Shown: piece by piece, positions 7,874-53,703 of the stretch | How the letters are laid out: every line of letters begins with the position of its first letter | Position numbering within the stretch: the first letter of the stretch is position 1 | Source: Antedon mediterranea | Lineage: Eukaryota; Echinodermata; Crinoidea; Comatulida; Antedonidae | Reading direction: 5' to 3' | Length of the DNA stretch: 64,000 bases | Assembly (NCBI RefSeq): GCF_964355755.1 | Contig: NC_092674.1 | Coordinates: 24,144,001 to 24,208,000 of the forward strand | Notes under the pieces: generated by a model | What the model saw: only the letters and a program-made list of their open reading frames with translations | Database searches by the model: none | Told to the model about the DNA's origin: nothing | Translations under genes and position numbers: made by a program

Positions 7874-25451
<17,578 letters not shown>

Positions 25452-28086: not shown

Positions 28087-29563
28087 GTAATACATTCTCT
28101 TGAAATTCATTTTTACCGTACCACTTTTTTAAATCGGTGAGGCACCGTTTTACACTAAATAACTCGCACAGCACACAACTTCATCTCTTCTTCAATGCAT
28201 TACCGGTGGTATGCAATGAACTTACTTCAAACATTATAGCACGTGCTGGTCTACTAAAACACTGCTGCCAATCAAACAAACACTCTTTTAATGCGGCCCT
28301 CTATAAAAAAAAATTCAAAACGTACAGTACCCATGCAGAAATCGTATGCGCAGTTTGATTGCTCTATTGACATGTCTGCATCAAGCATTAATTGACAACA
28401 AAAATATATTGCTGAACAACTATTTTAAATTTCATCATAATCGGGCTACTGTACGGGAAGTTTACTTTCTTACGACCGTAGTTTTAAGTAATTGATAATA
28501 TTAATAAAATATGCCATTGTTATATTTAACTTATTATATTGTTCCGGAAACCTCCGGAAATTAAAAATTACATTAATCTATAGACAAAGAAATAATGCAT
28601 TGACCCATGTATGTCATTGCCGTGTGCATGTATGTCATTACCGTAGGTAGCGGGTTTTTCATGAATCTCCATAATGTATCCATGGAGGTATAAACTCCCC
28701 CATGATTGTATCGATGTGAATTGGCTTGTGGTATGTCATCTATGTCATAGCCAATCACCGGGTCTAATCGAATCAAAACCGTGATCCCTGATCTGATTAG
28801 CACCGTTACCATCAGCCGAATATGTATTATCTTGACGAATAGCCTATACATTGCGGTTTAACGGCACATGCTCAGCAGCAAAAGAGACCTTGTTGAGCCG
28901 TGAAATGTGCAAAAAGTCACATTTGTGCAAACAACCACATTTGTGCAAACATGGCACCCACAAATGTGCACATTTGTAAAAATGTATAGTCCACTAATGT
29001 GCAAATATCACGCAGTTAAATGTAAAAACGATCAGTTTTGACGTTAAATGTGCAAATGAAATTTTACAAATGTGCAAATCGTTTTTTCAACCAAAATCTT
29101 TTATTAAAAATGATAACGTAATTTCTATAGTCACCGGTTTTTCAACAACAACTATAAAGGAATTCACTTCAACAGTATGGATTACCCTCTCCAGCAAGCA
29201 TCGTCAGTCCTACATCCCCAGACATGAGTGTGTTTTTTTAAACAGATTATTTATTAAATACATGGCTATACCTTGAAAACATTGTTGGTAAAACCCGTGA
29301 CTATTTATTTTTAATAAAGGATTTCGGTTGAAAAAAAGATTTGCACATTAACGTCAAAACCAGATTTGCACATTTGAGGGTGCCATGTTTGTTTTAATTG
29401 CACAAACGTGACTTTTTGCACATTTCACGGTTCAACAGACCTACATTGTGGCGTATCAACACGCGCTTGTCGACAAGAGAGATAGAATGATAATATGATT
29501 GATCTCACCCATTTCCAATGCAAAGTAAATTTTAATGAAGTTTATTTATGTTTTTATAAACAG
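28087..29563 (+). other. Pseudogene intron 1
   Basis: Contains the complete TGTTGAGCCG element (28891-29437). No similarity to the 9 kb intron at the same place in the intact gene was seen. Confidence 0.55.
28891..29437. mobile_element. TGTTGAGCCG inverted-repeat element, complete
   Basis: A 547-bp element with inverted ends of about 100 bp. The left end starts TGTTGAGCCGTGAAATGTGC; the complement of the right end starts TGTTGAACCGTGAAATGTGC. It is flanked by GACCT at 28886-28890 and 29438-29442, a 5-bp target duplication. The interior is rich in AATGTGCAAAT-type words. Non-coding, so moved by a transposase from elsewhere. Confidence 0.82.
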
Positions 29564-30205
29564 AGCTAGTCTTTTAACTGGAAGATATGCAGTTCGTTCA
29601 GGTGTATGGTCGCCAGGTGGTAATTATTCTGTATTTACGCAAGCATCAATTCCCGGATTACCTCATGACGAAGTCACAATACCAGATATGTTGGCTAAAC
29701 AAGGTTACAAGTCTGCTCTGATTGGTAAATGGCATCCTGGTGTTGGACGCCACAAAGAATATCTTCCTTTTTCCATGGGTTTGATGAGTATTTCGGGATA
29801 CCTAATTCACATATATGGATTGTCCATGTATCACGTGTTTTTATCCCAGTGACGACTGCAACTGCCAATCATGTCACGACTGGCGGGCACCATGGCAGTT
29901 ACTAAATGGAGACGAAATCATCGAACAACTAGTGGATTTTTAACAGTTTTAAGCAGAAGAATGACAAGAACAGCTCGTAGTGTGATTAAAAAATACTCTT
30001 GCACAGACACTCCATTTTTTCTTATGTATTCGTTTTACCATCCACATGTACCACATTTTGCTGGTAAAGAATTTACAAATTCTACAACAGGCATTTACAT
30101 GGATTCTTTGGCGGAAAAAGACTGGCAAGTAGGAGAGGTGATGGATGAACTAAAGAAAAGCGGAGTGATCGAAAATATGTTAGTCATTTTTACATCAGAC
30201 AATGG
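29564..30205 (+). pseudogene. Arylsulfatase pseudogene block 2
   Basis: Homologous to intact exon 2, with ASLLTGRYAVRSG and GYKSALIGKWH still readable. It is then shifted by a 1-base loss (CCTTTTTCCATGGG against CCTTTACATCATGGG) and by later 2-base gains. It ends at AATGG before GT, as in the intact gene. Confidence 0.9.
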
Positions 30206-31314
30206 GTACTGTATACTGTTTCTTGTACTACGGTACGGTATCTTTATTAGTTTTATTGGATTGACTGTATCGTATTTGTACGTATGTCCATCAATACCAA
30301 AATATTCATTATTAGTATTATCACGAGTATATAATTATTAATAAATAAATAAAATTAAGTCTTTAACAACACTGTCGAAAATAATTACCAAATGTTACAA
30401 AAGATTTTCTTGACATCAAAGCAGTAAAATAAATCATGATTCACATTATTTTTCTTATAACTTAAAAGATTATAATATTTTAACGTATTGTCATAATAGT
30501 TAAGAAAGCGATGCAAGTTAGTAGCTTTAACAATGTATCAAATGATACAAGTCGTTACACACATGGCGTTCCATACACATTAGTATGGTTTTTTGTAGGG
30601 TAAACACCACTTATTCACATTCATATTATCTTTCATGTCATCACATAAAAATCATATTATTTATCACATTTTTGTTAATTTCTAATGTAATTAATGAGTT
30701 TTCGGTCGTTTTGTTTGGCAGCCGTTTCGACAAGACTCTTACGAAATTTATATCTGGTCTGGTCAAGGCAAGCTCAGTGTGCTGTTGTTAGAAAGTTGGT
30801 CGTACCAGTATGAATATACATGTATTTGCATACTAAATTGTAGATTATAGACACATTATGGAGACTATCAAAAATAGTTAGTCAAAGTCATTCTTTATTC
30901 ATCAAACATAAAACATTGTGAAATACAACAATATAAGAAAACATAATGACAGATGAAAAGGAAACACATAAAAACTCAAAAGAGCTTGATAAGTTAGTTA
31001 TGAATTATCATTCAGTAAGAAAACGAAATTTGTGAAGGGAAGCTTAAAAGTTCTGTCTAATATTCCTGTTCGAATGGTGGAAAAATGATTAAGTTTATTT
31101 CGCTTTATTAAGCCTATTTATTTCAATCACCCTACTGTAAAAAAACATCAATCGAATTTTGCCAAATCTTGTACAGTATTTGACAATTTTAAGGGAAATT
31201 CATTTTTTCGTCGTGATTTATATTACAAATATTTGATTTATGTACAATTAACCAGGTATTATATTTAGAAATGCCTGTACCTGAGCTCTAAGACTAGACA
31301 ACAGACCTGACTAA
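30206..31314 (+). other. Pseudogene intron 2 and deleted exon 3 start
   Basis: AT-rich; no element recognised. The first ~97 bases of exon 3 should lie at the right edge but are absent. Confidence 0.45.
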
Positions 31315-31428
31315 TAGCCTAATTGAAACTTAAAATTTCTAGTGGAATTTCAACTATACTTTTTATTCAAATTAACACATCTGGCCAACACTGCGTACTT
31401 TCAGTGGTTCTTCACCAGGTGACTTTCT
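31315..31428 (+). pseudogene. Arylsulfatase pseudogene block 3 (internal fragment of exon 3)
   Basis: Matches the intact exon from TAGCTTATTGG through AAAATTTCTAGTGGAATTTC to the SSPDDF codons, then stops. Both exon edges are lost. Confidence 0.82.
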
Positions 31429-31499
31429 AGAATAAAACATAAAAGTTTAAACCTGAAGACCCCTTATTTATTGTTTTTTATTCATTTATTTGTTTTCAG

Positions 31500-31900
31500 T
31501 CTCATCGGCATTCTATGCTTTATTATCGATCAAACCAATTACCTGTTGCTATCCGAAATGTGATTTTGTAAGCGATAGTGTCATTCGAGTGTAGATCTAT
31601 GTGGGTCTGACTCTCTGGCAACTCCACTTTTGTTTGACCTTCTCTATGATCCAGGGGAGCGTAATAACTTGGTGGAATTTATCCGAATACAGGTCCATCA
31701 TACTGGAAATGGAAAAACTATGGATAATTGAAACTGAAAAATTTGAGATAAGAAAAAGCGTACCAGGTTCTGATGTTATAGTATTCAATTTTGTTGTGAT
31801 CCTGGATGTGAAACATACCCCGAATGCTGTAGCTGTCCATCAAATTACACAATTGAAATGTTTCCATTAAAGGAGAATTGTAACCTTTAACCCTTAGCGC
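31500..31900 (+). pseudogene. Arylsulfatase pseudogene block 4
   Basis: Starts after TTTTCAG as intact exon 4 does (CATCGGCATTCTATGCTTTA) and follows it to the TGTAACCTT site. In-frame stops and indels are present. The intron before it is only about 70 bp, against 882 bp in the intact gene. Confidence 0.87.
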
Positions 31901-32960
31901 TAAGCAAAATTGTGCAGGACAGAAGAAACACGTTGTTAATTATTATTTATTTTCTGATGAAAAAGTTAGTTTACAATTGTAAAATTTCCCCAATAAAACA
32001 CCAACAAAACATTGTGTAAATAGAAACGAGAATCTTTTATTAGTTTTACAAAAAAGGAAATTACATGGCTACTGTAAAATTAAATCATTTTATCAACATC
32101 AAAGGTCAATAAAGGTCCCAACATGGAAATTAAATATTGTAAGAATTAATTGGAACTTAGCTCCTGCTTCGATATAATACTGTCAAAATGTTTATTAGTC
32201 GCGTGCAAACTCGACTCTACAGCTCACTATGTCGGTCGGTCGGTTGGTTGGTCGGTCGGTCGGTTGATCGGTCGGTTGGTCGGTCGGTCGGTCGGTTGGT
32301 CAGTCGATCGATCGGTAAACACTAACTCATATGTTAGCACGCGACTGCAGCCACGTATATGGCATTGTTGTATTATGTATTATTATATAGGAACCGTATA
32401 TCTACCCGCATTTATATATTCACTTTGTATAACGTCTACCGGTTACCAGTTTATTTTATTATAATTATTTAATCAGAATTGGAAATACAATGGAGGTCGT
32501 ATGCAATTATTGTTATAGTATTATCGAGAGAGTGAAGGTATATGGTACTATCAATATTACGATATTATATTGAGTGCATGTCATTTATTATTATTATAAA
32601 GAGAACTTACAGCCGGTAAGAGGTGCTAAAATATTGTTGTTAGACCACTCTCTTAAGTGGTTAATTTTTGTTTACCTGTTCGGACAGAAAAAAAAAAGTT
32701 TGTGACGTTACTTTCAGAAACGCTGTTGTATAACCATGGTTGATATTTAGAACAACTATATTAGCGGTTTTTTAGAAGTACCAGGTAAGTCGATAAATTG
32801 AAATTAAGTATATTTTTAGTATTAAATTATTTTAGGTTTCTAAATGTATATAAAGTTTATGATGACAAAAATCTGGAATTCAAAATATAAGAAACAAATG
32901 TTCTCCGCTCTAAGTCGACAAAACATTAAACAATGTACACATTTTTCTGTAGGTGCAGCC
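31901..32960 (+). other. Intergenic DNA upstream of the intact arylsulfatase
   Basis: Contains a GGTC/GGTT microsatellite (about 32229-32312) and a likely 5' UTR exon boundary (TTTTTCTGTAG, ending at 32952) just before the start codon. No other coding segment is recognised. Confidence 0.5.
32229..32312 (+). repeat. GGTC/GGTT microsatellite
   Basis: Tetranucleotide run of CGGT and TGGT units, about 80 bp, ending in CAGTCGATCGATCGG. Confidence 0.9.
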
Positions 32961-33208: not shown

Positions 33209-36200
33209 GTACCGTATAACTTTGTTTTGAAATAGTCTAATCATTTTCAACTTTGATAAAAATGGCTATTAACTTATATTGATTCATACTTTTCATTCCT
33301 GTGTGTTGTTTTGTATCTGGAAACACAAAATTAATATTAAAAAAAGAGAGAAATTATGTACTAATTTGTGGAACATTTTTCAACTTTACTATTCATGACT
33401 TCACACACGTGATCTGAAAGACATCCATCTTCCCACGGACTTTGCAGTGTACACTCGTCGCCTGTATTTGAATTCAAAAGCCTTAGTCCTTGTTGTCTTC
33501 CTTAGGCCATGTTTTGTATTCAAACTTAGACCTTTTGAATCTGAAAAGCAATGATAATAATAATAATTCAACATTTATTAGTTGCTATTAATGGTAAAGC
33601 AATAGGACTACAATAAAAAGAGTGGTTATTTATAATAAGAATACAAAAATACCATTAATAGAGGATCTTGCAAGAAGAGATTTCTTGTCACGCATGACCC
33701 ATAAACGAAAAAAAACAAATACATTTGATATATATATATATATATGTATATATAAACAGAAGAGGCAAAGAACATTAATTCTAAACCGCCCGGTGATATA
33801 CTGAAATTTAATTAATTAATTTGAAACGATAAAGATATATATATATATAAATATATAAACAAATCAGGCAAAGAACATTAATTATATATATATTTAAAAA
33901 GGCAGGAGGTCAAATTTCTGTGCAATATATATATCCCAGTGGGCAAAAATTGGTTGAATTAACGTTAATTCAACGTTATCTGCAAACGTTGAAATAACGT
34001 TGAAAAAGTGGTTGAAAATGAAAGTTTGCCTCAACGTAAATGTCAACGTTGAATCAACATAGAAATTATCAACGTTGAAACAACATTAAACTAAGTAACG
34101 TTGAAATAACGTTGAAAAAATGGTTGAAAATGAAAGTTTGCCTCAACGTAAATGTCAACGTTGAATCAACATAGAAATTATCAACGTTGAAACAACGTTA
34201 AAATAGGTAACGTTGAAATAACGTTGAAAAAATGGTTGAAAATGAAAGTTTGCCTCAACGTAAATGTCAACGTTGAATCAACATAGAAATTATCAACGTT
34301 GAAACAACGTTAAAATAGGTAACGTTGAAATAACGTTGAAAAAATGGTTGAAAATGAAAGTTTGCCTCAACGTAAATGTCAACGTTGAATCAACATAGAA
34401 ATTATCAACGTTGAAACAACGTTAAAATAGGTAACGTTGAAATAACGTTGAAAATGAAAGTTTGCCTCAACGTAAATGTCAACGTTGAATCAACATAGAA
34501 ATTATCAACGTTGAAACAACGTTAAAATAAGTAACGTTGAAATAACGTTGAAAAAATGGTTGAAAATGAAAGTTTGCCTCAACAAAAATGTCAACGTTGA
34601 TTCAACATAGATTATCAACGTTGAAACAACGTAAACATGTCTACGTTGAAATTATCAATGTTGATTCAATGTTGAAATTATTAACGTTGAAACAACGTAA
34701 ATATTAAGTTGAAATGAAAATTTGCATCAATGTAAATTTAAACATAGATTTAACGTTGAAATTTGATTTGTTGAATTACTATATCCAATTTGAATCAACG
34801 GTTTTAAAGTAGTTAGTAGTAAAGTTACTGTTACGTCGCAGAATCCATCAATAGAGACATTTTATAAATACTGTATATCTTACTAATCTTTAATTTCTAT
34901 AAAAACATAAATAACATTTAATCAGGTGTTATCAAATCATCAGGCAAAATCCAAGCAACAATCAAATAATGTACATCCTCACTGACAGTTCTCAGGTACC
35001 AATGTTAGGTATAAAAAATATACTAATAACCAGTTTGTAATATGTTTGCCAACTAACATGATTGAATAACTATAAATATTGGCTGATTACAGTAAAACAC
35101 AATAAATAAAACACACGTCACAGGTGCCTTGTGCTAATGCTGCAGAAGTCCAAATGATGGCAATAACACAATACTGTAATTGCATTGTTCCGATTAGTCA
35201 ATAAACAGTTGCCTCGATTCCTGTGTTGACATTGTCCTATGCTTTCCAAAAGTGTGGCAATATTATTTTTCCAAACCTGAAACAAATTCAATCAAGTTAC
35301 TGTAGTTTTAAACAAAAATAATACAGTAAAAAATTAATTGTTGAAAGATTTATTGTCCCCAAAAAACATGAACAATGAAGATTAATACAATCATACTTTG
35401 AATACCTTGCCATTTTGCAATTTTAACAATTTAGATATTCACTTGCCGTAGAAAATAAACAAAAACAATAAAGATTTCACTTAACAAAAATACAAAATAA
35501 ACAGTACATTTAACCAAAAACCAATTGTTTGTTTAAATTGTCCCCCTTTTAAGGTACAAATGCATTTTTTAAAATCTAATTTTTGGTCAAACTGAACAAC
35601 TCTATAGTGACGGCATATTCAACAAAACATTTTAAAAAAAATTGTTCAGTTCAATTATATCTTTAACACATTGTTCAAAAATCATACTGTACATAAAAAA
35701 AAATTCAATTCAGAACATCATTTCACACTTACACGTAAAATATGCAATCAATTCAATTCATGTAAATAATATTGCAACACTGTATTAATATTTACGCCAT
35801 GGTTAGGATTCTGGCACCGAAACTCAACTGCCCAGCGTTAGGGAATCCGACACACTATTGCGCATGCCCAGAGCAAGGTAATCGGCGACTCTATTTTTGT
35901 CTACAACAGACCAAAGCGTGGTTCCCACTAGCGACGCAACACAAGGACGTAACGCAACGCAAGTAAATTGACCAATCACAAGCGATGGCTTATTCGCTTG
36001 TGATTGTTAACTGTCTATAACTTCGCTTGTCATTGGTTAAAACGCTTGCGTTGCGTTTACGTCCTTGCGTTACGTTCTAGTGGGAACCAAGCTTTACAGC
36101 GATGGATCATTTTAATAGCTGCGCCACGGCGAACTAGCCGGCCTACATGCCTACTAATACTAGTAGGCCTACAAGCTAGATGTGACCATTGGACCTATTT

Positions 36201-39200
36201 ATTTCGTAATTAAATTTGCTGCTTCATTCATATATAAACTTTATATATTTATGAATTATAATTGCATGACTAGTTTTAATTTTTATGATTTTTCAAGTAC
36301 AAAATAAAAGATTTCATATAATGCATTTATACTGTACATAACATCATTTGATTTGAAGTTGATTTGTTGACAGCAGCCGCCGTGCGGATGTGAAAAAAAA
36401 AAAAACAGAACTGTTCGGGAGAAGTCGGTGTCGCAACGCTACGCTATTCATTTTCGTACATTTCTTGAAATACGCAAGCTGATTCTTATCGATATCATAA
36501 TAATTATTTTAACGCTTGGCGTAATTATTAATTCATGTATGGCCTAGGCCAAGTTTCATCCATCGCTCTCTCCCCCGCGCGACGACTAACTAGGCCACAG
36601 CAAAGATATCTTTGGCTACACAGTACATCCCTAGTTAACACTCCGACTCTCGGGTAATGTGGTGCGCGGTCTGTGGCACTAGTGCAAGCTATAATTACTT
36701 CGCTCTGGGCATGCGCAATAGCGTGTCGGATTCCCTAACGATGGGAAGTTGAGTTGCGGTGCCGGAATCCTAATCACGGCGTAATATTTATTCAATTCAA
36801 TATTAAAGTTAAGAACTATAAATACCAACCTTTTGTATATAAAAATATTGATCATCCATTAGATTTTTCTCGTTTGATTCACATAGAAAAGATTATAGGC
36901 CTACATGTACTTCATTATTTTGTACTCTAGCTAGGCATAGGCCTAAGGGCCTTATTAGCTAGGCCTACAATCTGAAATAAAGAAAGCGAGTAAGTTTAAC
37001 AAATAGCCGTCCTAGGCTAGCAGCATGTGTTTTAGCAGCTACTGTAGACAGCCTAGCAGAAAGCTAGCTAGGCCAACTAATTATATATTATGTTATATTT
37101 ATGTATACTTTTGGATAAATAAAGAAAGTATTGAACTAAAAGGCCTAATTGTAATGGTTTACAGCCGAAACGGCCGCCGACTGAAACGGCCGCCAATTAA
37201 AAAACAATTGAATGTATGAAACTCTGCGTGTGCCGTTTGTCATACAACGTGTAATCAAAACGACGTGGGGTTTAATACAATTGTTTTACTTTTTTTTCCG
37301 ATTGAAATGACTTTAGACGTATGTGACTTAATAAATATTAACAGATAGGCCTAGATGTTTTTAATTATTATTTTTATTTTACATTACATTAAATATATTA
37401 ATTATTATTAAAAACGGCCGCCGACTGTTTTGCCTATTTCAACTTCAATAATTGATATAAGAGTAGGCCTATTTGTTTGAATACGTTAAATAAATTTAGA
37501 ATGGTGAATTATTATAATAAACATTATTTTAATAAAAACTTAACTAAAAAATATGTTTAACAGTTTATTCTTTGATTTTATTCTTAAACATATATTGGTT
37601 GGTTTCATTTATTTGTCCCTCCATCGTGGTTTCATAGGCTTTACTGTACGTTTATAATACTGCATTGGCTTGTTGAAGCTTCAGCGGTATTGATAGTTGA
37701 TAGTTGATAACTTTATTTCGTCCACATAGGAAAATATTTTGAGTGCTTTTCACAAAATTGTACAAAAATATATAAAAACGTTTCATATAAAAAAAAATTA
37801 ATTACAATATTTAAAAACACTATATATTATTTAACAATGTACAAGTATGAACATAAGACTACAATTAACTAAATAAAAAATAAAAAGCTGCAATACATCA
37901 AAAATTTCAAAAATTATGCAAAATCATTTAACAGTCTAATAGAATACGGAACAAAAGAATTAAAATATCGCATAACCCTACTATTGCACGATCTCAGCAC
38001 ATTTAGTCTTTTTGATCTCATTTTAACATAATGTTTATTTAAAGGGTGGTTTGAGTCGTCGCATATTTTCATAGCCTTATTTCTTATGATTTTGTTGCAA
38101 AGGTCATCCAAATTATGTCTAGATCCTGTGATCCTACCTACTTTATTTAATATTCGTTGTAATCTGGTTTTTTCTTCTGTTCTACATCCACAGAACCAGG
38201 CAACACAACAGAAAGTGAGCACACTCTCAACAATCGAAGAGTAAAATAAATTTAATACAGTTCTATCTACCCCATAATTTCTCAGTTTTCTGAGAAAGAA
38301 CAGTCGTGTATTTCCTTTTTTTATAGTATTTTTACAGTGTTTCTCCCAGCTAAATTTGTTATCAACAGTCACACCTAGGTATTTGTAGCTTTCAACAGAT
38401 TCAATTTCCTGATTATTAATTTTTAGGGGAGCCAGAGCAGTACATTTTTTTCGAAAATCAATTATTACTTCTTTGGTTTTCTTTTCATTTAGCAAGAGGC
38501 AATTTGCCTTACACCAATTCGAAAAAGCAACGATTTCATCATGATATTCAGTTTCACTAGCTCTGTTTTTTAATAGGCCAACAATGGCGGTTTCATCCGC
38601 GTATTTTAAATAATGTATGCTACTAGAAGTTGACTTACAGTCATTGGTATATAAAATAAATAGGAGGGGGCTTAACACACATCCTTGGGGTGATCCTATA
38701 TTTGTGTCTAAAACATGACCGAAAATGATCGTCCCATAGAAAATGTTGGCGGCCGTTTCAGTCGGCGGCCGTTTCGGTCACCATTGTAACGGGATATGAC
38801 CGGTTGGGCCGCCGACAAGTTGAGCCGTCGGTAATTTCTATGAAACGCCCAGTGCGTCTTTTACGACATTTCGCGTAGTGATAGAGGGGTGTCCTAGTAC
38901 ATAAGTTCATGGTCTTTAGGTTTATTGTGTCATGAAAATAAATAATAATTACATACTACAATTTTGTTGGTTTGAACAGCCATAACAACACAGCAAAGGA
39001 AAGTAGTCATATTTAATAATTTAATTGTTTTTAATCTTTCAAATCTTTCAAATTCTTTCAAGTGCAGTGCACTCCATAATATTTTTCTCGCGTAAAATCA
39101 TGTTGTCTCTCAGGACTAATAGAGTATTGATACTCTTCGAATGAGGTTAAATAATAATTATTTTTTATCTACTATCTTTTAATATCATATTTTATTGAAT

Positions 39201-42200
39201 TTTACAATGTTAATACACAAAATATTTTACTAAAAAACGGTGATTTTATGCAATTATTTTACCGAAAAATGGAGTAGGCCTAGTTCATACAACTGCCGCC
39301 TAAGGGGGCAACATGTTTACGTCATTTTTGGCTAAAAACGATCATTTTCGGTCATGTTTTAGGCCTTATATTTTGGAATCTACAAGTCAGATATTCATAA
39401 TTATTTCTCTTTAATTATAATATTTAATAATATATACTAAAAACCGTGATATATAAACTTTGGAATATACATCGTTATATCTAATAATTAATATAAATAG
39501 AACTTCTATTAAATAGAAACGAGCACCGGCGAAAGTAAGCATTTGGCGTTTCATAGAAAATAACGTTTTTCTGGCGGCGGCTCAACTTGTCGGCGGCTCA
39601 ACTTGGCCTAATCCATTGTAACTAATACATACCATTTTATAACCATAATAAGTACAGTACTGTAGTTATCCTTGGCAAGGCAAATGTTTGCCCTTGACAT
39701 GCATAATACCATAGAGATATTATAGTAATATCTCTATGATAATACTAAATGCTTCCACTAGGCCTAGTGAGTGAATTCAGTTCATCAGTTTGGCAGCCTG
39801 CCTAGCCTATTAGCCTAGCCTACCAGGCTAATAGCCTAGGCCTAGCTATGCATGTGTGGCCTACTAGACTAGAGGCTAGCTATTGATAAGGGTAAAATAG
39901 TCAAGCTCAAAGCTTATAAATTAGTAGATTACAAATAAAAAAGATTGTTTTCCTACCTCAAAACATACTTATTTGACAATTTCAATGATGAGCCTTTTTT
40001 TTCTACACACCACTGATGTCGAAGTAACTGAAATTACTGACACCAGTTTCAAAATTTTATCAAAACGAAACTAACCAATGACAAGCTCGTATCTTATGAA
40101 ATTTGATCTTGCAAAGGATCATTCAATTTTCAACACAACTTCTAGAACATTTTTGTATTATACAGAGACAATAATATTTGCCAATCTAAAATTCCTAAAT
40201 AACCAATAATCATTTGTTTTACAATAAATGATGATAAAATAAACCGCCAACTGAAATCTAATGTTAATTTAACGTTGAAACATCAATGGCACCGCACTTA
40301 AACACACATTATTTAATATTAAACGTTAAAAACATGTCATTTTAACCAAAGTATTAAATAGAATTTATCTTTAAATTAACGTTTGAAAAACAAAAATAAT
40401 AATTGTTTGAAAAAACAACATAATTTCAAGAGTTTTTCAACGTTGAAAACATGTCATTTGAAAATGACAACTGGATTTCAACGTTAAAATAACGTTGGAA
40501 TAACATTGAAAAACAAAAATAATAACTGTTTGAAAAAAAATACTAGTTAGAAATACAATGTTATTTCAACGTTGGATCAACATTGATAAATTAACGTAAA
40601 TTACTAGTTAGAAAGACAATGTTATTTCAACGTTGGATCAACATTGATAAATTAACATAAATTTCTAGTTAAAAATACAATGTTATTTCAACGTTGGATC
40701 AACATTGATAAATTAACGTAAATTTCTAGATATAAATACAATGTTATTTCAACGTTGTATCAACATTGATAAATTAACGTAAATTACTAGTTAGAAAGAC
40801 AATGTTATTTCAACGTTGGATCAACATTAATAAATTAACGTAAATTTCTAGTTAAAAATACAATGTTATTTCAACGTTGGAACAACATTAATAAATTCAC
40901 GTAATTTCTAGTTAAAAATACAATGTTATTTCAACGTTAGATCAACATTGATAAATTAACGTAAATTACTAGTTAAAAATACAATGTTATTTCAACGTTC
41001 GATCAACATTGATAAATTAACGTAAATTACTAGTTAAAAATACAATGTTATTTCAACGTTGGATCAACATTAATAAATTAACGTAAATTTCTAGTTAAAA
41101 ATACTATGTGATTTTAACGTTGGATCAACATTGATAAATTAACGTAAGTTTCTAGTTAAAAATACTATGTGATTTTAACGTTGGATCAACATTGATAAAT
41201 TAACGTAAATTACTAGTTAGAAAGACAATGTTATTTCAACGTTGGATCAACATTGATAATAAAACGAAAATTTCTAGTTAGAAATACAATGTTATTTCAA
41301 CGTTGGATCAACATTGATAAATTAACGTAAATTTCTAGTTAGAAAGACAATGTTATTTCAACGTTAAATCAACATTGATAAATTAACGTAAATTACTAGT
41401 TAGAAAGACAATGTTATTTCAACGTTGGATCAACATTGATAATAAAACGTAAATTTCTAGTTAGAAATACAAATGTTATTTCAACGTTGGATCAACATTG
41501 ACAAATTAACGTAAATTTCTAGTTAAAAATACAATGTTATTTCAACGTTGGATCAACATTGACAAATTAACGTAAATTACTAGTTAGAAAGACAATGTTA
41601 TTTCAATGTTAAATCAACATTGATAAATTAACGTAAATTACTAGTTAGAAGGACAATGTTATTTTAACGTTGGATCAACATTGATAAATTAACGTAAATT
41701 TCTAGTTAAAAATACAATGTTATCTCAATGTTGAATCAACATGAATAAATTAACGTAAAACATTTGTTTGAAAAACAATGTTATTTCAACGTTGGATCAA
41801 CATTGATAAATTAACGTAAAACATTTGTTAGAAAGACAATGTTATTTCAACGTTAAATCAACATTTATTAATTAACATAAATTACTAGTTTAAAAGAAAA
41901 TGTTATTTCAACGTTGATTCAATGTTTATTACTAAACGTAAAAAAAATAGTTAGGGAAAAAATGTTATTTCAACGTTGATTCAACGTTTGAAATACGCTG
42001 ACAACATGATTTCAACAAATCAACTATATTTCAACGTTGATTCAACGTTGAAATTATGTTCTGTGCCCACTGGGATAGCTACTACGCAGCAATTATGCAT
42101 AATTATTACAATAAGTATTATTATGCCGAAGAGAATAATAATACACAGAACATGGGATTGGTAACCTTTCCTTTAACATTACATTTTCGGATGAAGTGTC

Positions 42201-44716
42201 ATGTCGTGTACTATATTTCTCTTTTCGAGGTATAATTAACTCGCATTCAATTTGATATTTAACTATACATTTTGTTTTTAACAGAGCCAGTCTTCTAACT
42301 GGAAGGTATGCGATTCGCTCAGGTATCTGGGAACAGGGTAATTATTCTGTGTTTAATCAAGCATTGACGGGAGGATTACCTCATGACGAAGTGACAATAC
42401 CAGAGATGTTGGCTAAACAAGGTTACAAGTCTGCTCTGATTGGTAAATGGCATCTTGGTGTTGGACGCCACAAAGAATATCTTCCTTTACATCATGGGTT
42501 TGATGAGTATTTCGGGATACCTAATTCACATATGGATTGTCCATGTATCACGTGTTTTTATCCCAGTGACGACTGCAACTGCCAATCATGTCACGACTGG
42601 TTGGCACCATGCCAGTTAATGTATGGAGACGAAATCATCGAACAACCAGTGGATTTAACAGTTTTAAGCAGAAGAATGACAAGAACAGCTCGTAGTGTGA
42701 TTCAAAAATACTCTTGCACAGACACTCAATTTTTTCTTATATACTCGTTTTTCCATCCACATGTTCCACATTTTGCTGGTAAAACATACAGAAATTCTAC
42801 AACGGGCGGGGTTTATATGGATTCTTTAGCGGAACTAGATTGGCAAGTAGGGGAGGTGATGGATGAACTAAAGAAAAGCGGAGTGATCGAAAATACGCTT
42901 GTCATTTTCACATCAGATAATGGGTACCGTACCGTTTTACCCGTTACTTAGGTCTACTCTAATATCTTCGTTGTATTGGTTGTAATACATTTTAATAAAT
43001 ATTTATTTAAATCAACGGATACTTAATTACTTAATTTGTAGGCCTATTGTAAATTTCTCCCATATACAGATAGTTTGTTTTTGTAGACCTATGTGTATAT
43101 TTTGTAATTACAGACCGCTTTTAACCGAAATAGAAGAGGGTGGTTCCTCTGGCATCATGGCTTGTGGTAAAGGTTCTACATTTGAAGGTGGGACACGCGT
43201 TCCTACTATAGCTTATTGGAAAGACAAAATTTCTAGTGGAATTTCAACACAATTCTTCAGTCATCTCGACATCTGGCCAACACTTTGTACTCTCAGTGGT
43301 TCTTCACCAGATGACTTTGACGTCACATTGGATGGGTTTGACTTTTCTGATGCAATCCTAAATAATGGAAAAGTAAGATATATATCCTTTCGTCCGTTGG
43401 TTCCTTGTATTATTGAGGGCGTGTGGCGCAGTGTGTTGGACGCTGGACTACCGATCGTCAGACCTAGGTTCGAATCCAACTCTCGCCGCATTGCTTGTAT
43501 CCGTAGGCAAGATACTTTACTTACGTTGCCTCTCTCCACCCAGGTGTTTAAATGGGTACCCAGTTAGATCTAGACACAACTTTGCGCTGGTTACCGGCTG
43601 CATTATGGAAGTATGTTTCCATACGTGTTTGATCCCAAAAAATACTGGGGTAATAATGCTTGTAAAGCGCCTTTGAGCATGATTAATCATGAAAAGGGCG
43701 CTATATAAATGTGGTTTTATTATTATTATTATTATTGATGATGTCATACACAAATCTTCTAATTGTAACCCTGGGTTGTTATTTTTTGATTGTCTTATAG
43801 GGTGGGTCACTATTAGAAGGGGAATTACTATTAGAGTAGTGGGCTGTTATTATTACTAATTTTAAATAAGGCACCTGAAAATAGTAACCTATACCCCCAA
43901 CTTTTCTGGTCAGCAACTCATAACAAAATAATAAAACAGTACGAATAAACACACCCAACTCTAACTTTATTTTATGAACTCAAAAACTCTCAATCCTCCC
44001 CCACTCCCGATATCAACATGCATTATCTCCTTATTTTCAAAATACGGCTGCATCATATGTTTTTGTGACTCTGTTAGCAACCCCATGTGTTACTATTAAT
44101 GTAGTGGGGGTTATTATAGATTGACTTATAAGGTGGGTTACTATTAGAATGTGGGTTAGGCCTACTATTAGAAGATTTACGGTATCTATAAAATAAGCAA
44201 ATCATTATATTTCGTGGATCTAAAATAGCCTTTTATGTCTGTTTTTACTTTCAGACTCATCGTCATTCAATGCTTTATTATAACTCCATTCATCTACCAT
44301 ATGCTGTCCGAAATAAAAAATACAAAGCTCATATTTTAAATAATCGTGAAGTTACAGATGTAGACCTTTGTGTACCTGGTGATACAGTACATGTCAGTCC
44401 TCCATTTTTGTTTGATGTCCTTCTCGATTCCGGAGAGATTAACAACTTAGGAAATTTAACTGAATACAAGCATATCATACTGGAAATGGAAAACCTATGG
44501 AAAACTGAATTGGAAAAAGTTGAGGTTAGACCAAGTGTGTTGTTAGGTTATGATGAAAGTGCACAGCTTTGTTGTGATCCAGGGTGTGAACCATACCCCG
44601 AGTGCTGTAGCTGTCCCTCAAATTACACAATTGAAATGTTTCCATTAACGGAGAATTGTAACCTTCAACCGTTACCTCTGAGTGAAAATCACCAGAACAG
44701 AAAAAACGAGTGCTAA
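32961..44716 (+). CDS. Secreted or lysosomal arylsulfatase (ARSA/ARSB-like), complete
   Basis: Four exons (32961-33208, 42285-42923, 43114-43372, 44255-44716) join in phase to 535 codons plus TAA. Family members hydrolyse sulfate esters on glycolipids, glycosaminoglycans or matrix sugars. A hydrophobic N-terminus (FYLLLLCSIGLC) is a likely signal peptide. Calcium-site residues D39 and D40 lie in FLADDMGFGD. CSPARASLLTG (Cys79, the residue converted to formylglycine) fits sulfatase signature 1 and GYKSALIGKWH (129-139) fits signature 2; TSDNG (D294, N295) completes the metal site. GKGSTFEGGTRVP and THRHSMLYY resemble ARSA-type parts. Length is near the usual 500-550. The 9 kb first intron holds the foldback-like element. 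The exact substrate cannot be deduced. Start ATG 32961 lies eight bases after a probable acceptor. Confidence 0.93.
33209..33931 (+). other. Arylsulfatase intron 1, left part
   Basis: AT-rich with two AT dinucleotide runs (about 33729-33752 and 33836-33860). No coding segment. Confidence 0.5.
33946..34800 (+). repeat. 112-bp tandem array, left arm
   Basis: Units starting GTAACGTTGAAATAACGTTG at 34095, 34207, 34319, 34431 and 34531, spaced 112, 112, 112 and 100 bp. The short unit lost the AAATGGTTG segment. Less regular units flank the array. Each unit has several CAACGTTG palindromes. Confidence 0.95.
34801..35790. other. Interior of the foldback-like element, left
   Basis: About 35345-35560 resembles 62590-62800 (shared words such as ATGAAGATTAATA and ACTTTGAATA), an unnamed interspersed repeat. 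The rest is AT-rich without recognised features. Confidence 0.45.
35794..36782. mobile_element. DNA transposon remnant with 81-bp inverted ends
   Basis: Ends at 35794-35874 and 36702-36782 are inverted over 81 bp with about eight differences (outer bases ACGCC; inner GCATGCCCAGAGC). AATATTT flanks both ends (35787-35793, 36783-36789), a 7-bp target duplication. A GGTTCCCACTAG-family MITE is nested inside at 35913-36095. Non-autonomous. Confidence 0.82.
35913..36095. mobile_element. Palindromic MITE, GGTTCCCACTAG family, copy 5 (best preserved)
   Basis: Long inverted arms: left AAAGCGTGGTTCCCACTAGC, right CTAGTGGGAACCAAGCTTT. Arms of about 50 bp include repeated ACGCAACGCAAG words, and the centre has GACCAATCACAAGCGATGG with its inverted partner. 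Confidence 0.85.
37690..38700 (-). mobile_element. 5'-truncated LINE (Rex1/CR1-like) fragment
   Basis: The minus-strand reverse transcriptase C-terminal part (37914-38699) is followed by a 3' tail reading AAATAAAGTTATCAACTATC, a short direct-repeat tail like those of CR1-group LINEs. It is cut at about 38700, just inside the catalytic region. Confidence 0.85.
37914..38699 (-). pseudogene. LINE reverse transcriptase, C-terminal fragment
   Basis: An open reading frame of about 260 codons. It starts at GSPQGCVLSPLLFILYTND (motif 4), then the catalytic box reads YADET rather than the usual YADDT, followed by a LNEKKTKEVIIDFR segment and SYKYLGVTVDNKFSWEKH. The end PYSIRLLND is typical of Rex1/CR1-type LINEs. 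The 5' part of the protein, including endonuclease, is absent, so it is inactive. Confidence 0.87.
38807..39607. mobile_element. Sister inverted-repeat element with CCGCCGACAAGTTGAGCC ends
   Basis: The left end GGCCGCCGACAAGTTGAGCC and the right end GGCTCAACTTGTCGGCGG are inverted, with ATTTCTATGAAACGCC further inside both. ATTGTAAC lies just outside both sides (38783-38790, 39615-39622). It shares ACGATCATTTTCGGTCATG in inverse with the right side of the neighbour at 37153-38785. Confidence 0.72.
39710..39738. repeat. Perfect 13-bp hairpin
   Basis: Arms CATAGAGATATTA and TAATATCTCTATG around the loop TAG. No promoter or gene context; perhaps a MITE remnant. Confidence 0.75.
40255..42060 (+). 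repeat. 61-bp tandem array, right arm
   Basis: More than twenty units with spacing 61 bp (40561, 40622, 40683, 40744, 40805 and on), core GTTATTTCAACGTTGGATCA then ACATTGATAAATTAACGTAA. Edges are decayed (40255-40540, 41900-42060). Confidence 0.95.
42285..42923 (+). CDS. Arylsulfatase exon 2
   Basis: Completes Arg83, then ASLLTGRYAIRSG, GYKSALIGKWH, HHGFDEYFG, a Cys-rich loop (CPCITCFYPSDDCNCQSC) and FTSDN; donor GG before GTACCG. Confidence 0.93.
43114..43372 (+). CDS. Arylsulfatase exon 3
   Basis: Starts GPLLTEIEEGGSSGIMACGK, then STFEGGTRVPTIAYWKD and the HLDIWPTLCTLSG helix; ends NNGK before GTAAGA. The frame stays open into the intron but runs into a SINE, so the donor at 43373 is preferred. 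Confidence 0.9.
43373..44254 (+). other. Arylsulfatase intron 3
   Basis: Holds a tRNA-derived SINE (43415-43736). Two related segments at about 43791-43820 and 44123-44150 share GGTGGGT and ACTATTAGAA. Confidence 0.6.
43415..43736 (+). mobile_element. tRNA-derived SINE, second family
   Basis: Head with A-box-like GTGTGGCGCAGTGTGTTGG and B box GGTTCGAATCC (43467-43477). Body with GGTGTTTAAATGGGTACCCA, 3' part GTAAAGCGCCTTTGAGC and GGGCGCTATATAAATG, and an ATT-repeat tail. It differs from the GAGTGGCCGAGCGG family. Confidence 0.87.
44255..44716 (+). CDS. Arylsulfatase exon 4
   Basis: Starts THRHSMLYYNSIHLPYAVRN and KYKAHIL, continues to a Cys-rich tail (CCDPGCEPYPECCSC), stop TAA at 44714-44716. 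Confidence 0.92.
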   Translation, partial: THRHSMLYYNSIHLPYAVRNKKYKAHILNNREVTDVDLCVPGDTVHVSPPFLFDVLLDSGEINNLGNLTEYKHIILEMENLWKTELEKVEVRPSVLLGYDESAQLCCDPGCEPYPECCSCPSNYTIEMFPLTENCNLQPLPLSENHQNRKNEC

Positions 44717-45152
44717 AACTCATGCGTAACAATGAATGTTTAAAACATTTTTTTTAGGTTGGCCTACATTATTTATATATTGTTTGAAGGTTTGCATGAC
44801 GAAATCAAATGTTGATTTATATCTACATTATTTAGTTATAGTGATTGTCTATAGTATAAATATCATGTATAAAAGTTACTGCTTAATTCATATGTTATAG
44901 TTTTGCTGTCTAAAAGTCAGCACTAACATTTAGGTTTGGTGGTGGCAATGGGGAATATGTTAAAACATTCTCGGCGTGGTACGGCGGAACAGCACTAGTC
45001 CTCAGTTGTACGCACGCGCACCAGCGATCAAATTGATACGCCCTCATCTTACAGTATTTTTATTCACGAGGCGGGATCTCAGAAGAGATACTTTTATATA
45101 TATATGAGATCATGTTCCGAATATGAGCACTGTTTCTATAATTTACAGTATG
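44717..45152 (+). other. Arylsulfatase 3' flank
   Basis: Presumed 3' UTR and spacer. A 38-bp piece (about 44785-44822, TTGTTTGAAGGTTTGCATG) recurs from ISWI intron 1 near 8453. The right edge is the GTATG duplicated by the retrotransposon. Confidence 0.5.
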
Positions 45153-46417
45153 TGTAAAGTATTGAAATATAATAGAACGCCCTCTATAATTTTGTGGATG
45201 TTGCTCCTAGGTCTAATATATAGGGGTGTGACCAAATTCCAGGAGAGATGAATTTTGGGTTTGAACAGCGACACATCTCCAACTCGACACTTTTCTAATT
45301 TTTTGTTGTGACAAATTGTTTATTTGGAACTTGTTTGTAACTTTTACAACTTGTTTATAACTTTGAAAGCTTGGTTAATTGTATGAAACATTTATGTGTA
45401 ATTTGGCAACATTTGTGATTTCGACAACCTTGTTACTTTTTATATGTAAGTTGATTCCGATTTTTTCTTTATAGAATACTTTATGTTTATAATGTTGAAT
45501 AATCGATTATGACGTTATTGGGCTCGTGAGAGTCTGTATCATTATCGATATACAGTAGTTGTTTTAATCACATATATATTATCGTTCATACCGTAGGTAG
45601 GCTATAAACTATAACTATGCATTATATACCGTATATATATTTCTTGCCTTTGTTGATATTAGTGATTGTTTTAAATTCTCCAGTTGCGATAAGGATTTAA
45701 TATGTCTAATTAGGATGTTTTTTATGATATTATTGATACATTATAGCAGTTGTATGCTATTTAGAATAACCTACTGTAGTTTGGAAATCTATACATCATT
45801 TGTATTAAGGTATAACGATTATAAAGTGTAATGCCTGAGTGGTGCCTCATTTCGATTCATTGGAGGGCAATTTAAGTTTTTGGTTGCCAATAGCAACTGG
45901 ATAGTTGAGAGGGGATGGGTTATAAATTATAAACAAGGATCGCTTTATTTATATTGCAGCTGTTTTGAACTGGGAGTAGTTCAAGTGCATCTGTTTACTG
46001 TGATTGGTATATTTGAGGCGTCAAAGTCAAGTAGGTTTATATTTTGAACCCCATGGCTCGTTTTAACTTGTAGTGGTAATTGATAAGGAATACGTTTGTT
46101 ACTTGTTGCTTTAATGGTAACATTGTTGTGATCGCTATTCTATTGATATGTTTATATTAATTTTAATTGGTACACTTATACACCTTTTCATTTAACTCAT
46201 TATAATATCGCTGTAACTTCTTGAATAACGTTGTATTCTGTAACACATTATAGAAAGTAATGTAGTTTCCTTTATCTTCTTTTAGTCACCAGAACAGAAC
46301 GGAAGATCGGTCTATTGTAAATAAATTGTAGATATTGTATTTGCTGGATCAGTGTCTTTTGTTATCTGCGTCGATTGACCACACACGCCACCAAGCGAAC
46401 TCGCGTAGTACGCTACA
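45153..46417 (+). repeat. 5' LTR of BEL/Pao element
   Basis: Starts TGTAAAGTATTG and ends CGCTACA. It should hold the promoter and polyadenylation signals; AATAAA-like words are seen at its end (GTAAATAAATTG, near 46318). Confidence 0.97.
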
Positions 46418-46440
46418 GTGATTGACTAGCCTATACGAGT

Positions 46441-49400
46441 ATGGCAGAAGATAGGAAGACTACGCTGACTTTGCAGCGCCGAAACAGAAAGGGATTGGTA
46501 ACAAGAAGTTTGAACACTTTGAGCGCATTGTTAAAAACGGAAGGAGTTACTATTGTTGACATAGACGACCAATTAGAGCGGGTGGACGAGGCATTCAAAG
46601 TAGTAGAAAAGGCCCATCTCGCGTTGTTGGATGTCATTGATGACGATGACATATTTGAGCAAGAAGAGGAGTGGATGGCGAAAGTAGAAAAAGAATATAC
46701 AGATCAGAGGAGGAGCGCATTGGCTCATTCTTGCGAATTGAGGAAAGTAGACCATGGTAATGGAAAGGTCGACGCTGCCAACAACCAACAAGGAACTAAG
46801 GCGGTCGGTGAGCTAAAGACTAGTAGTAGTAATTTAAGTATGGATAGCCTAGTGAAGGCGATGTCTTTACCTAGGCCCGAATTACAAATGTATGATGGCA
46901 ATCCTTTAAGGTATTGGCCATTTATAAGAGCCTTTGATGTATTAATGTCGGAGGTATCTGACGACAATTTTAAACTGACTACCTTATTAAAATATTGTAG
47001 GGGTAGAGCAAGTGACGCCCTACAATGTTGCCTTATGCGGCCCCCAACTGAAGGGTACAAACTGGCAAGGGAAATCCTCTCAGAGAGGTTCGGAGATAAA
47101 GGGACGATCGTCCAGACCTGGGTAGATAAGATTGTAAATCGCCCTAAGATTGACGTTGCCGAGTTAAGGCAATTTACCGACGATTTATCATCCTGCAGGG
47201 AAACGCTAGATGCGATGGGTTTTCTTGGGGAATTAAATAACCAACGTAGCCTTAGGTCAATAATTGACAAGTTACCACGATACTTACAGATAAGGTGGGT
47301 TAAAGAATATCAAAGGATAAAGCTTAGAGGCAGTCCACCTACCATTGCACATGTTGTTGACTTTGTTAAATCGGCCTCTAAGGAGGCAAATGATCCTGTA
47401 TTTGGTAGCCTTGTCTCGGGTAGTGCAGGTAACAAGCCAGAGAGACAGACGACCAGCAACAGAGAACCCGAAAAACGCCGAAATAAGAATTTTGCCATCG
47501 GATCCCCGTCCTGTCAAATGTGTGAAGGTTCTCATTCTTTATTTGGTTGTCTACAGTTTAAAGAAAAGAATGTTGAAGAAAGGCTATCATTCGTAAAGAG
47601 GAACCGGCTATGCTTTAATTGCCTAAAACCTGGACATAACGCATCAAGATGTCTATTGAATAGGACATGCTCGGTAGCTGGATGTGGACAGAAACACACC
47701 AAGTTCCTTCATATAATTAAGCCAAAGGCGACACAACAACAACAACAACAACAACAAGCCCCCGCATCTAAAGCTCAGCCACATCAAGCAGAGCAGACAC
47801 CAGCTGCTAGTGTACCGCAGCAACCACAGACGCAGCCAGTTGGGCACGCCGACAAGATGAACACCTTCATCTCATTACCAATCTTGCCGGTCACAATACG
47901 ATCACCGGAAAGTGGGATAGAGGTAGACGCATACGCACTATTGGACAGTGGGAGTACAAGCTCATTTTGTACAGAGAGATTGGCAAAGACGTTGAAGGTG
48001 AGAGGTAGACCGGAGAACCTGATCATTAACACCATCGGTGATAATGAAAGCAGTGTACCCAGCAGAATAATCAGTCTGGAAGTGAGAGGCATGGGTGGAG
48101 GAGAACCTGTAGCACTCCCACTAGTATATTCCACACGAAAAATGACAATTCGCTCTTCGACAAGTCGAGCCTTGAAGTTGGATGAAGTGAACAAATGGCC
48201 TCATCTAAATGGAGTTAATCTCCCACGACTAGACAACTCAGAGGTGGACCTCCTAATTGGGCTAGATGTTCCAGATGCGTTACAACCGCTTGAAATAAGA
48301 GCCGGTGGAAAAGGGGAACCGTATGCCACACGAACATCCCTTGGGTGGTCCCTAAACGGTCCTGTTATGGGAAGAAATGAGAAGAGATCTTCCACGTTTG
48401 CTTGCGAGATTCAGAACAACGTGAGGCTTGATCAGATACTGGAGAGATTTTGGACAACTGATTGTGACGTACCTGCATTGGATGACGATGACAGAATGAT
48501 GTCTGTTAATGACAAAAGAGTAGTTAAACTATGGGATCAAAATGTACAGTTTAAGGATGGACATTACCATTTACCTATTCCCTTCAAGCAACGCCCGCCT
48601 ATTTTACCGGACAATAGACATACTGCTGAAGTCAGACTTGGCCATCTCCGACGGAAATTGGTGAAGGATGTAAGCCTTAAAGCCAAATATGCTGAGGTTA
48701 TTAAAACCCTAGTTGAAGAAAATCATGCAGAACCTGTAGGTAACCGCAATTCGACGTTCCCAAATTGGTATCTGCCACACCACGCTGTCCCCAAGAAGAA
48801 TGGTGACGTACGAGTAGTATTCGATTGCGCGGCAAAACATAGGGGTCTATCGCTAAATGACGTAGTCATGCAGGGACCAGATCTTGTCAACAGCCTGATG
48901 GGGGTCCTTCTGAGATTCCGCCGGCGACAATACGCCATCATGGGTGACATCAAGGCTATGTTTCATCAGGTTAGGGTGCCACCAAATGAAAGGGAGGTTC
49001 TTCGATTTCTTTGGTGGACAGACGACGAAATGACGGAAGTGAGTACCTACCGTATGTGTGTGCACCTGTTTGGTGGAACCTGGTGCCCAAGCGCGAGCAC
49101 TTATGCTCTAAGAAAGGCGGCACAAGATAACCGTGCTAAAGTTGATGTTAATATCACTGAGATTGTGAATGAAAATTTCTACGTGGACGACGCTCTAATC
49201 TCTGTTTCAACTGAAGAAGAAGGAGTTAGAGTTTTAAAGAATCTGACGGCCTTGTTATCCATGGGAGGGTTCAAGTTGACGAAATGGATAGCCAATAGCT
49301 CAGAAATCCTACGTCATGTTCCAGTGGAGGACAGGGCCACGACGGTTAAGGAGCTTGACCTAGAAGGTGCCATCCTACCATCCGAAAAGGCACTAGGGAT

Positions 49401-51726: not shown

Positions 51727-51832
51727 GACCCTATAGTCGTGTTTACTATGTACATATGTATTTAGTTTTTATAATATTTCATTTACCTTTTTATTAAGTG
51801 ATTGTTAAACCCGTTTGGTTTAAAGGGGGGAG

Positions 51833-53097
51833 TGTAAAGTATTGAAATATAATAGAACGCCCTCTATAATTTTGTGGATGTTGCTCCTAGGTCTAATATA
51901 TAGGGGTGTGACCAAATTCCAGGAGAGATGAATTTTGGGTTTGAACAGCGACACATCTCCAACTCGACACTTTTCTAATTTTTTGTTGTGACAAATTGTT
52001 TATTTGGAACTTGTTTGTAACTTTTACAACTTGTTTATAACTTTGAAAGCTTGGTTAATTGTATGAAACATTTATGTGTAATTTGGCAACATTTGTGATT
52101 TCGACAACCTTGTTACTTTTTATATGTAAGTTGATTCCGATTTTTTCTTTATAGAATACTTTATGTTTATAATGTTGAATAATCGATTATGACGTTATTG
52201 GGCTCGTGAGAGTCTGTATCATTATCGATATACAGTAGTTGTTTTAATCACATATATATTATCGTTCATACCGTAGGTAGGCTATAAACTATAACTATGC
52301 ATTATATACCGTATATATATTTCTTGCCTTTGTTGATATTAGTGATTGTTTTAAATTCTCCAGTTGCGATAAGGATTTAATATGTCTAATTAGGATGTTT
52401 TTTATGATATTATTGATACATTATAGCAGTTGTATGCTATTTAGAATAACCTACTGTAGTTTGGAAATCTATACATCATTTGTATTAAGGTATAACGATT
52501 ATAAAGTGTAATGCCTGAGTGGTGCCTCATTTCGATTCATTGGAGGGCAATTTAAGTTTTTGGTTGCCAATAGCAACTGGATAGTTGAGAGGGGATGGGT
52601 TATAAATTATAAACAAGGATCGATTTATTTATATTGCAGCTGTTTTGAACTGGGAGTAGTTCAAGTGCATCTGTTTACTGTGATTGGTATATTTGAGGCG
52701 TCAAAGTCAAGTAGGTTTATATTTTGAACCCCATGGCTCGTTTTAACTTGTAGTGGTAATTGATAAGGAATACGTTTGTTACTTGTTGCTTTAATGGTAA
52801 CATTGTTGTGATCGCTATTCTATTGATATGTTTATATTAATTTTAATTGGTACACTTATACACCTTTTCATTTAACTCATTATAATATCGCTGTAACTTC
52901 TTGAATAACGTTGTATTCTGTAACACATTATAGAAAGTAATGTAGTTTCCTTTATCTTCTTTTAGTCACCAGAACAGAACGGAAGATCGGTCTATTGTAA
53001 ATAAATTGTAGATATTGTATTTGCTGGATCAGTGTCTTTTGTTATCTGCGTCGATTGACCACACACGCCACCAAGCGAACTCGCGTAGTACGCTACA
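51833..53097 (+). repeat. 3' LTR of BEL/Pao element
   Basis: Matches the 5' LTR at all positions but one. The plus-strand primer tract lies immediately before it. Confidence 0.97.
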
Positions 53098-53703
53098 GTA
53101 TGATTTATATAAACATGGCTTCTAATCCATTCAATGTCGAAACTCTCTCTATAATGGCTCTGTATCGTTCAATTATATAGCGCCCTCTCTCGGCATTTCA
53201 CTTTTCCAAGTTGGTAAAGTGTCTCATCATGGATTATTGGATTATTGGTAAATCGGACAACTAGTGCAAGTTTCGTTGTTAAAAAAAGATTCTAACAGTT
53301 AGTCCAATTGGTTGTGTTTGCTACAATACTGTTCCTGATTACAATTAAAAAGTAAAACACAACAAGTACGATGCAATATTATAATTTAATTGAATCAAAA
53401 GGAGATAAGTGATAGTTTTAAAATTATCAAGAAAGATAATAATGATGTCTATATTGTTTTTTTAACTGTGAATATTAAGTACCCACGTTTAATAATGATA
53501 GAAATTCTGTTTTGAATATTTATATTTGATAAAGGCTACGGTAATCATCCATTTTCCGAATGTTAAAACAGTGTACCAAAAAATACCTATTTTTTAAATC
53601 TAAAAATTAGAGTCAAAAGATTCTAAAAAGTGATAAATGCCTACTGCATGCCTAATAAGCCTAGGCCTACTATATTTAATCGTGATTGGCGGCCACTTTC
53701 GAT
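53098..53703 (-). other. 3' flank of the C4-like gene
   Basis: Presumed 3' UTR and downstream DNA of the minus-strand gene; AT-rich, no further element. Confidence 0.45.

Follow-up and report, generated by a model that had tools for sequence, protein, structure and literature searches.

A probable non-autonomous animal CACTA transposon with unlike satellite arms in the crinoid Antedon mediterranea

The window analyzed here, a 64,000-nucleotide stretch of the Antedon mediterranea genome, contains an element spanning positions 33935-42074 that begins and ends with the inverted repeat CCCAGTGGGCA (33935-33945 on the plus strand, 42064-42074 on the minus strand). A sequence-only reading of the same DNA had described a perfect 12-bp inverted repeat flanked by TA; the inverted ends are as it reported, but they are 11 bp long, because what looked like a twelfth base pair (T...A), together with the flanking TA, comes from a 2-bp target-site duplication, AT, at 33933-33934 and 42075-42076. 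A left terminal module of 59 bp (33935-33993, plus strand) leads into the left arm, a 112-bp tandem array of 5.9 copies (33985-34632, plus strand). At the other end are the right arm, a 61-bp tandem array of 23.7 copies (40537-41985, minus strand), and a right terminal module of 53 bp (42022-42074, minus strand). Both arrays, described earlier as unlike, were recovered by tandem-repeat detection (TRF).

Between the arms lie two non-coding segments shared across the family, interior A (34800-37149) and interior B (39623-40536), as indicated by comparison of copies and by frame and Pfam checks. Interior A, including an older nested inverted-repeat insertion (35767-36805, with arms at 35767-35882 and 36694-36805 that are 85% complementary), was found in most copies compared. 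The two segments are separated by a 2,473-bp insertion (37150-39622) that is foreign to the element and was carried by the window copy alone among the copies compared. It starts with TGTAATGG, finishes with CCATTGTAAC beside TAAT, and is composed of GCCGCCGAC-type inverted-repeat blocks flanking a reverse-transcriptase fragment (Pfam domain RVT_1, 37914-38678, minus strand). The size of 8.1 kb first given to the element thus describes its present span but not its native size, since the 2,473 bp are a later insertion; without them the window copy is about 5.7 kb. Open frames of at least 110 aa were absent from 14 copies, and a Pfam search of interior frames read through stops, run on interior A and the forward frames of interior B, returned no credible domain, only a sub-threshold match to APP_Cu_bd. 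The earlier statement that no transposase lies inside therefore stands for the frames tested, and movement in trans, as that reading proposed, follows from it.

Collinear blocks of 79-89% identity flank the element (29546-31929 and 42270-44707), placing it between the two members of a tandem gene or segment duplication. Other repeats also occur in the window. Direct repeats of 1,268 bp at 45152-46419 and 51832-53099, 99.92% identical and 6.7 kb apart, look like the LTRs of a retrotransposon about 7.9 kb long (45152-53099) and very young. A 69-bp satellite of 14 copies with units 97% identical (13272-14240) is unlike the CAACGTTG arrays, and a compound satellite with periods of 39, 91 and 170 bp is found at 11393-12217. 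The 20-21 bp motif ATATCACTACCATATATGGG, at 2296, 2317, 3256, 15001, 15733, 15754 and 63632, is often paired and present in both orientations, and perhaps marks the ends of another element.

A genome-wide search for CCCAGTGGGCA with AACGTT in the next 30 bases gave 112 raw matches, compared to none with a reversed-pattern control. There are only two main end types in the genome, a left type, L (CCCAGTGGGCAAAAATTGGTTGAAT, 34 exact 25-bp ends), and a right type, R (CCCAGTGGGCACAGAACATAATTTCAA, 42 exact 27-bp ends). Matching by position and orientation assigned 31 of the 34 L-ends to an R-end in the right orientation 5.7-12.2 kb away, leaving 3 L-ends and 11 R-ends unpaired, and the genome-wide end lists contained no L-L or R-R pairs at these distances. 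This pairing is far beyond chance, and the genome holds about 31 complete copies of this gene-less transposon. Near-full-length copies of the interior stretch 34760-35240 number 33, at 96-99% identity. In a diverged subfamily, four R-ends (L015, L017, L020 and L024) have a common outer flank, TAAACTCTAACAAAATATAT, at 95-98% identity, and seem to have been copied inside a larger repeat.

All 15 copies inspected, the window copy and 14 others, are flanked by a 2-bp duplication, and in none of the 14 others does a third flank base match. The dinucleotides duplicated in those 14 are TC, TA, AT, CA, TT, AC, CT, GT and AA; with nine different dinucleotides among the 15 copies there is therefore no TA rule, the TA target duplication of Tc1/mariner elements does not apply, and the earlier idea of TA as the target gives way to AT at this locus. 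An empty site was also found: copy L006 is inserted in a dispersed repeat, and its flanks, when joined with a single CA, produce an unbroken alignment to three uninterrupted paralogues (L060, L053 and L052). The claim that a single element is bounded by the inverted repeat is thus borne out by the 31 L-R pairs, the shared flank duplication and the empty site.

The arms are rich in AACGTT, as first noted, with 32 sites on the left and 28 on the right where mononucleotide shuffling predicts 0.24 and 0.51. These counts correspond to 38.6 per kb in the left arm and 16.6 per kb in the right, versus 0.13 per kb elsewhere in the window; interior A has no AACGTT site. The consensus units of the two arms align over 32 bp at 84% around a 22-bp core, AACGTTGANNCAACGTTGAAAT, which has two exact matches in the right arm of the window copy and four with one mismatch in the left. 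Allowing up to two mismatches, the core points inward 16 times and outward 0 times in the left arm, inward 23 times and outward once in the right arm, and is absent from the interior and the remaining window. An 11-bp spacing between successive AACGTT-like sites was counted 48 times in the right arm and 13 in the left. Spacings of 11 and 22 bp are close to one and two helical turns, and suggest that a protein may bind on one face of the DNA. Across 427 units of the 61-bp repeat, the AACGTT positions are 98-100% conserved compared to a mean of 94.6%.

A single short core was amplified twice, once at each end, and the tandem repeats of the two arms are unlike because these amplifications took place separately. 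In 15 copies, TRF copy numbers ranged from 4.2 to 6.1 on the left and from 18.8 to 35.7 on the right and were uncorrelated (r = 0.03; the value for L008 is low, as TRF split its right array). Relatives carry arrays of 131 and 133 bp (L028 and L019) and 127 bp (L021), and in one relative on C11 (L036) the L terminus is followed almost at once by interior sequence that is 74% identical, with no left array. These observations agree with the sequence-only reading in its proposal that the arms expanded independently.

The terminal 59 bp on the left and 53 bp on the right showed no variation in 15 aligned copies. The unique interior, compared in nine copies, had a mean identity of 98.9%, and 24% of its 25-column windows were free of change. 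Invariance of the ends among copies, taken alone, is suggestive; the case is stronger because the R-ends of diverged relatives (L019, L028, L030 and others) retain the same 27 bp ahead of different arrays.

The animal relatives of CACTA elements described as TRC by DeMarco and colleagues have a CCC core, a 2-bp direct repeat and a Transposase_21 transposase (PMC1636069), and the terminal inverted repeat of the Aedes TRC is CCCAGTCAAC (PMC1636069). The part of the Hydra literature that deals with EnSpm-4N1 gives this 5.8-kb element the terminal inverted repeat CCCAGCCAACATTGAC and a 2-bp target-site duplication, and it is likewise classed as EnSpm (PMC4298943). In the window family we found terminal inverted repeats beginning with CCC (CCCAGTGGGCA at both ends of the 31 pairs), 2-bp duplications in 15 of 15 copies together with an empty site holding a single CA, and repeat-rich subterminal regions, which are also present in a transposase-bearing element of the same genome. 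That element, 15.5 kb long, was identified by a Transposase_21 search of the genome, which led to two places that proved to be two copies, 99.6% identical, on C4 (C4:23784644-23800143) and C8. It encodes a 684-aa frame with Transposase_21 followed by DUF4218, just under the Pfam cut-offs (24.8 versus 28.6; 21.8 versus 27), in which the animal TRC motif appears as IDFMHQTCLG. Its ends are CCCAGCTAACA, with target-site duplications of TA and AA in the two copies, and its arms are AACGTT-rich arrays of 212 bp on the left and 104 bp on the right; the commonest spacing of AACGTT-like sites in the left arm is 22 bp. Unlike AACGTT-rich arms therefore occur in a transposase-bearing TRC element too. 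Seven of 11 terminal bases are common to this element and the window family, and the 22-bp core is not found in it.

The 11-bp CCC-core terminal repeats, the 2-bp duplications, the empty site, the multicopy family and its lack of a coding frame are direct observations, as are the single inward-pointing core used by both arms, the independence of the arms, and the like-built TRC elements in the same genome. We place the family with animal CACTA/EnSpm because any dinucleotide can be duplicated, the ends have a CCC core, and TRC transposase elements have the same type of end and arm; the structure in the window is very probably a large, non-autonomous DNA transposon in the TRC/EnSpm group of the animal CACTA superfamily. 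A self-encoded Transposase_21-type transposase, as an autonomous member would have, was not found, and the family, being without a coding frame, can therefore only be a non-autonomous member of TRC/CACTA.

An intact element combining a transposase with CCCAGTGGGCA at each end was not found in the genome loci examined. Searching with the 684-aa protein brought up further TRC transposases. One of them, on C7, is broken into frames of 350 aa and 160 aa, has the motif LDYMHLVCLG, and matches the 684-aa protein at 33% identity across 355 aligned positions. About 3.2 kb from it is a long array of 81-bp units in which the core AACGTTGANNCAACGTTGAAAT has three exact copies; the element end adjoining this array has been lost. 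Arrays of the C7 type lie at C1:12457100-12461300, C2:20541900 and 20565900, C6:8625300 and C7:11655485. A related array at C11:15524914, with a 77% match over 255 bp, is capped by CCCAGTGGGCAAAA, and its units point outward, unlike the inward units of the window. By array type, the window-family ends may be tied in two steps to the C7 transposase lineage, but the two steps come from separate copies and the C11 units face outward, so this falls short of proof. We put the chance that C7 represents the partner transposase lineage at about even. Old relatives at C6:10511525-10543800 and C11:9491612 contained only retrotransposon insertions and no transposase, and CCCAGTGGGCA ends were absent from the stretches examined near transposase fragments on C3, C4, C5, C9:13938107 and C11. 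Further transposases lie on C2/C6, where the stretches read stop short of the element ends, and on C9, where CCCAGTGGG motifs near the gene are part of a folded repeat and did not prove to be its ends. At locus L059 (C9:13295000-13304500), an open 713-aa TRC transposase is immediately preceded by a palindromic block (positions 2543-3137 of the reverse complement) in which CCCAGTGGGT recurs in either orientation.

The element was first labeled foldback-like, a description that would align it with Drosophila FB/Galileo or sea-urchin TU types, which have long inverted tandem-repeat arms and their own transposase class. The arms are tandem arrays with the 22-bp core inward at both ends, as this would predict, but instead of long near-identical inverted arms there is a perfect inverted repeat of just 11 bp, and the arm units have different lengths and sequences, aligning at 84% over 32 bp. 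Target duplications of foldback and TU elements are longer, about 7-9 bp, and the 2-bp duplication contradicts a foldback origin; we abandoned the label and regard this origin as very unlikely. It is also very unlikely that the family is non-autonomous but belongs to some other superfamily that makes 2-bp duplications, such as ISL2EU/PHIS. PHIS relatives are able to make duplications of 0, 2 or 3 bp (PMC12730594), but Transposase_21-bearing TRC elements of the same genome have the CCC core and the subterminal repeat arms as well, and the 22-bp core occurs beside the TRC transposase on C7.

The few unpaired ends (3 L and 11 R) are what might be expected if two unrelated satellite-bearing elements were neighbors and each had a second end of its own, a finding that the sequence-only reading had named as one that would refute it. 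The partnering of 31 of 34 L-ends with a correctly oriented R-end 5.7-12.2 kb away and the same 2-bp duplication on the outer flanks argue against it, and the aligned empty site, which lacks both arms together, refutes it, so that we consider it extremely improbable. Almost no weight can be given to a Helentron-type carrier of satellite arrays like the oyster Cg_HINE: elements of that type are dispersed, non-autonomous and equipped with satellite-like arrays (PMC7492417), but the window family has terminal inverted repeats and target duplications, which contradict it, and its arrays are at both ends, not central.

A non-autonomous animal CACTA element is a kind already known, and with its long unlike satellite arms and lack of genes this family is a good example and not a new principle. 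Literature searches with the terminal and array sequences turned up no relevant paper. Animal TRC elements (SmTRC1, and those of Tribolium and Aedes; PMC1636069) resemble it in their CCC terminal core, 2-bp duplication, Transposase_21 relatives and internal tandem repeats, whereas the window family is non-coding with long unlike arrays at both ends and SmTRC1 has one 3' tandem-repeat region. The Hydra element Spongebob_HMa / EnSpm-4N1_HM is similar in its 5.8-kb size, multiple copies, CCCAG end, 2-bp duplication and lack of an identifiable transposase; its terminal sequence differs, and the portion of the source describing it does not report unlike satellite arms (PMC4298943). Among plant CACTA elements, Chenopodium Jozin has several hundred bases of dense direct and inverted subterminal repeats and sometimes carries satellite arrays near its 3' end, but it has a CACTA core, a 3-bp duplication and mirrored tandem zones, where the zones of the window family are unlike (PMC8978399).

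In the mechanism we propose, a TRC transposase supplied in trans would bind the invariant terminal modules, excise the element and reinsert it by cut-and-paste. The arrays would be multiplied putative binding sites, either for the transposase or for an accessory subterminal protein. Plant CACTA subterminal repeats are held to be binding sites of this kind, for transposase or accessory proteins. Unequal exchange or slippage may have enlarged each arm separately, with the two arms starting from different phases of their common core, and the periods and copy numbers would differ for that reason. A further idea, which we think doubtful, is that the unlike arrays serve to label the ends: binding arrays of different phase and helical spacing (11 or 22 bp) would let the transposase complex join only L with R. 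If so, long asymmetric end satellites would have been selected for in this animal CACTA lineage and would not be a product of neutral expansion.

Behind related ends in this one genome we found a graded series, from no left array to arrays of 61, 81, 104, 112, 127, 131-133 and 212 bp, and the birth of satellites in the putative binding regions of CACTA-type subterminal sequence can therefore be traced stepwise. The dispersed CAACGTTG satellites of the genome are explained as transposon arms, not independent satellites.
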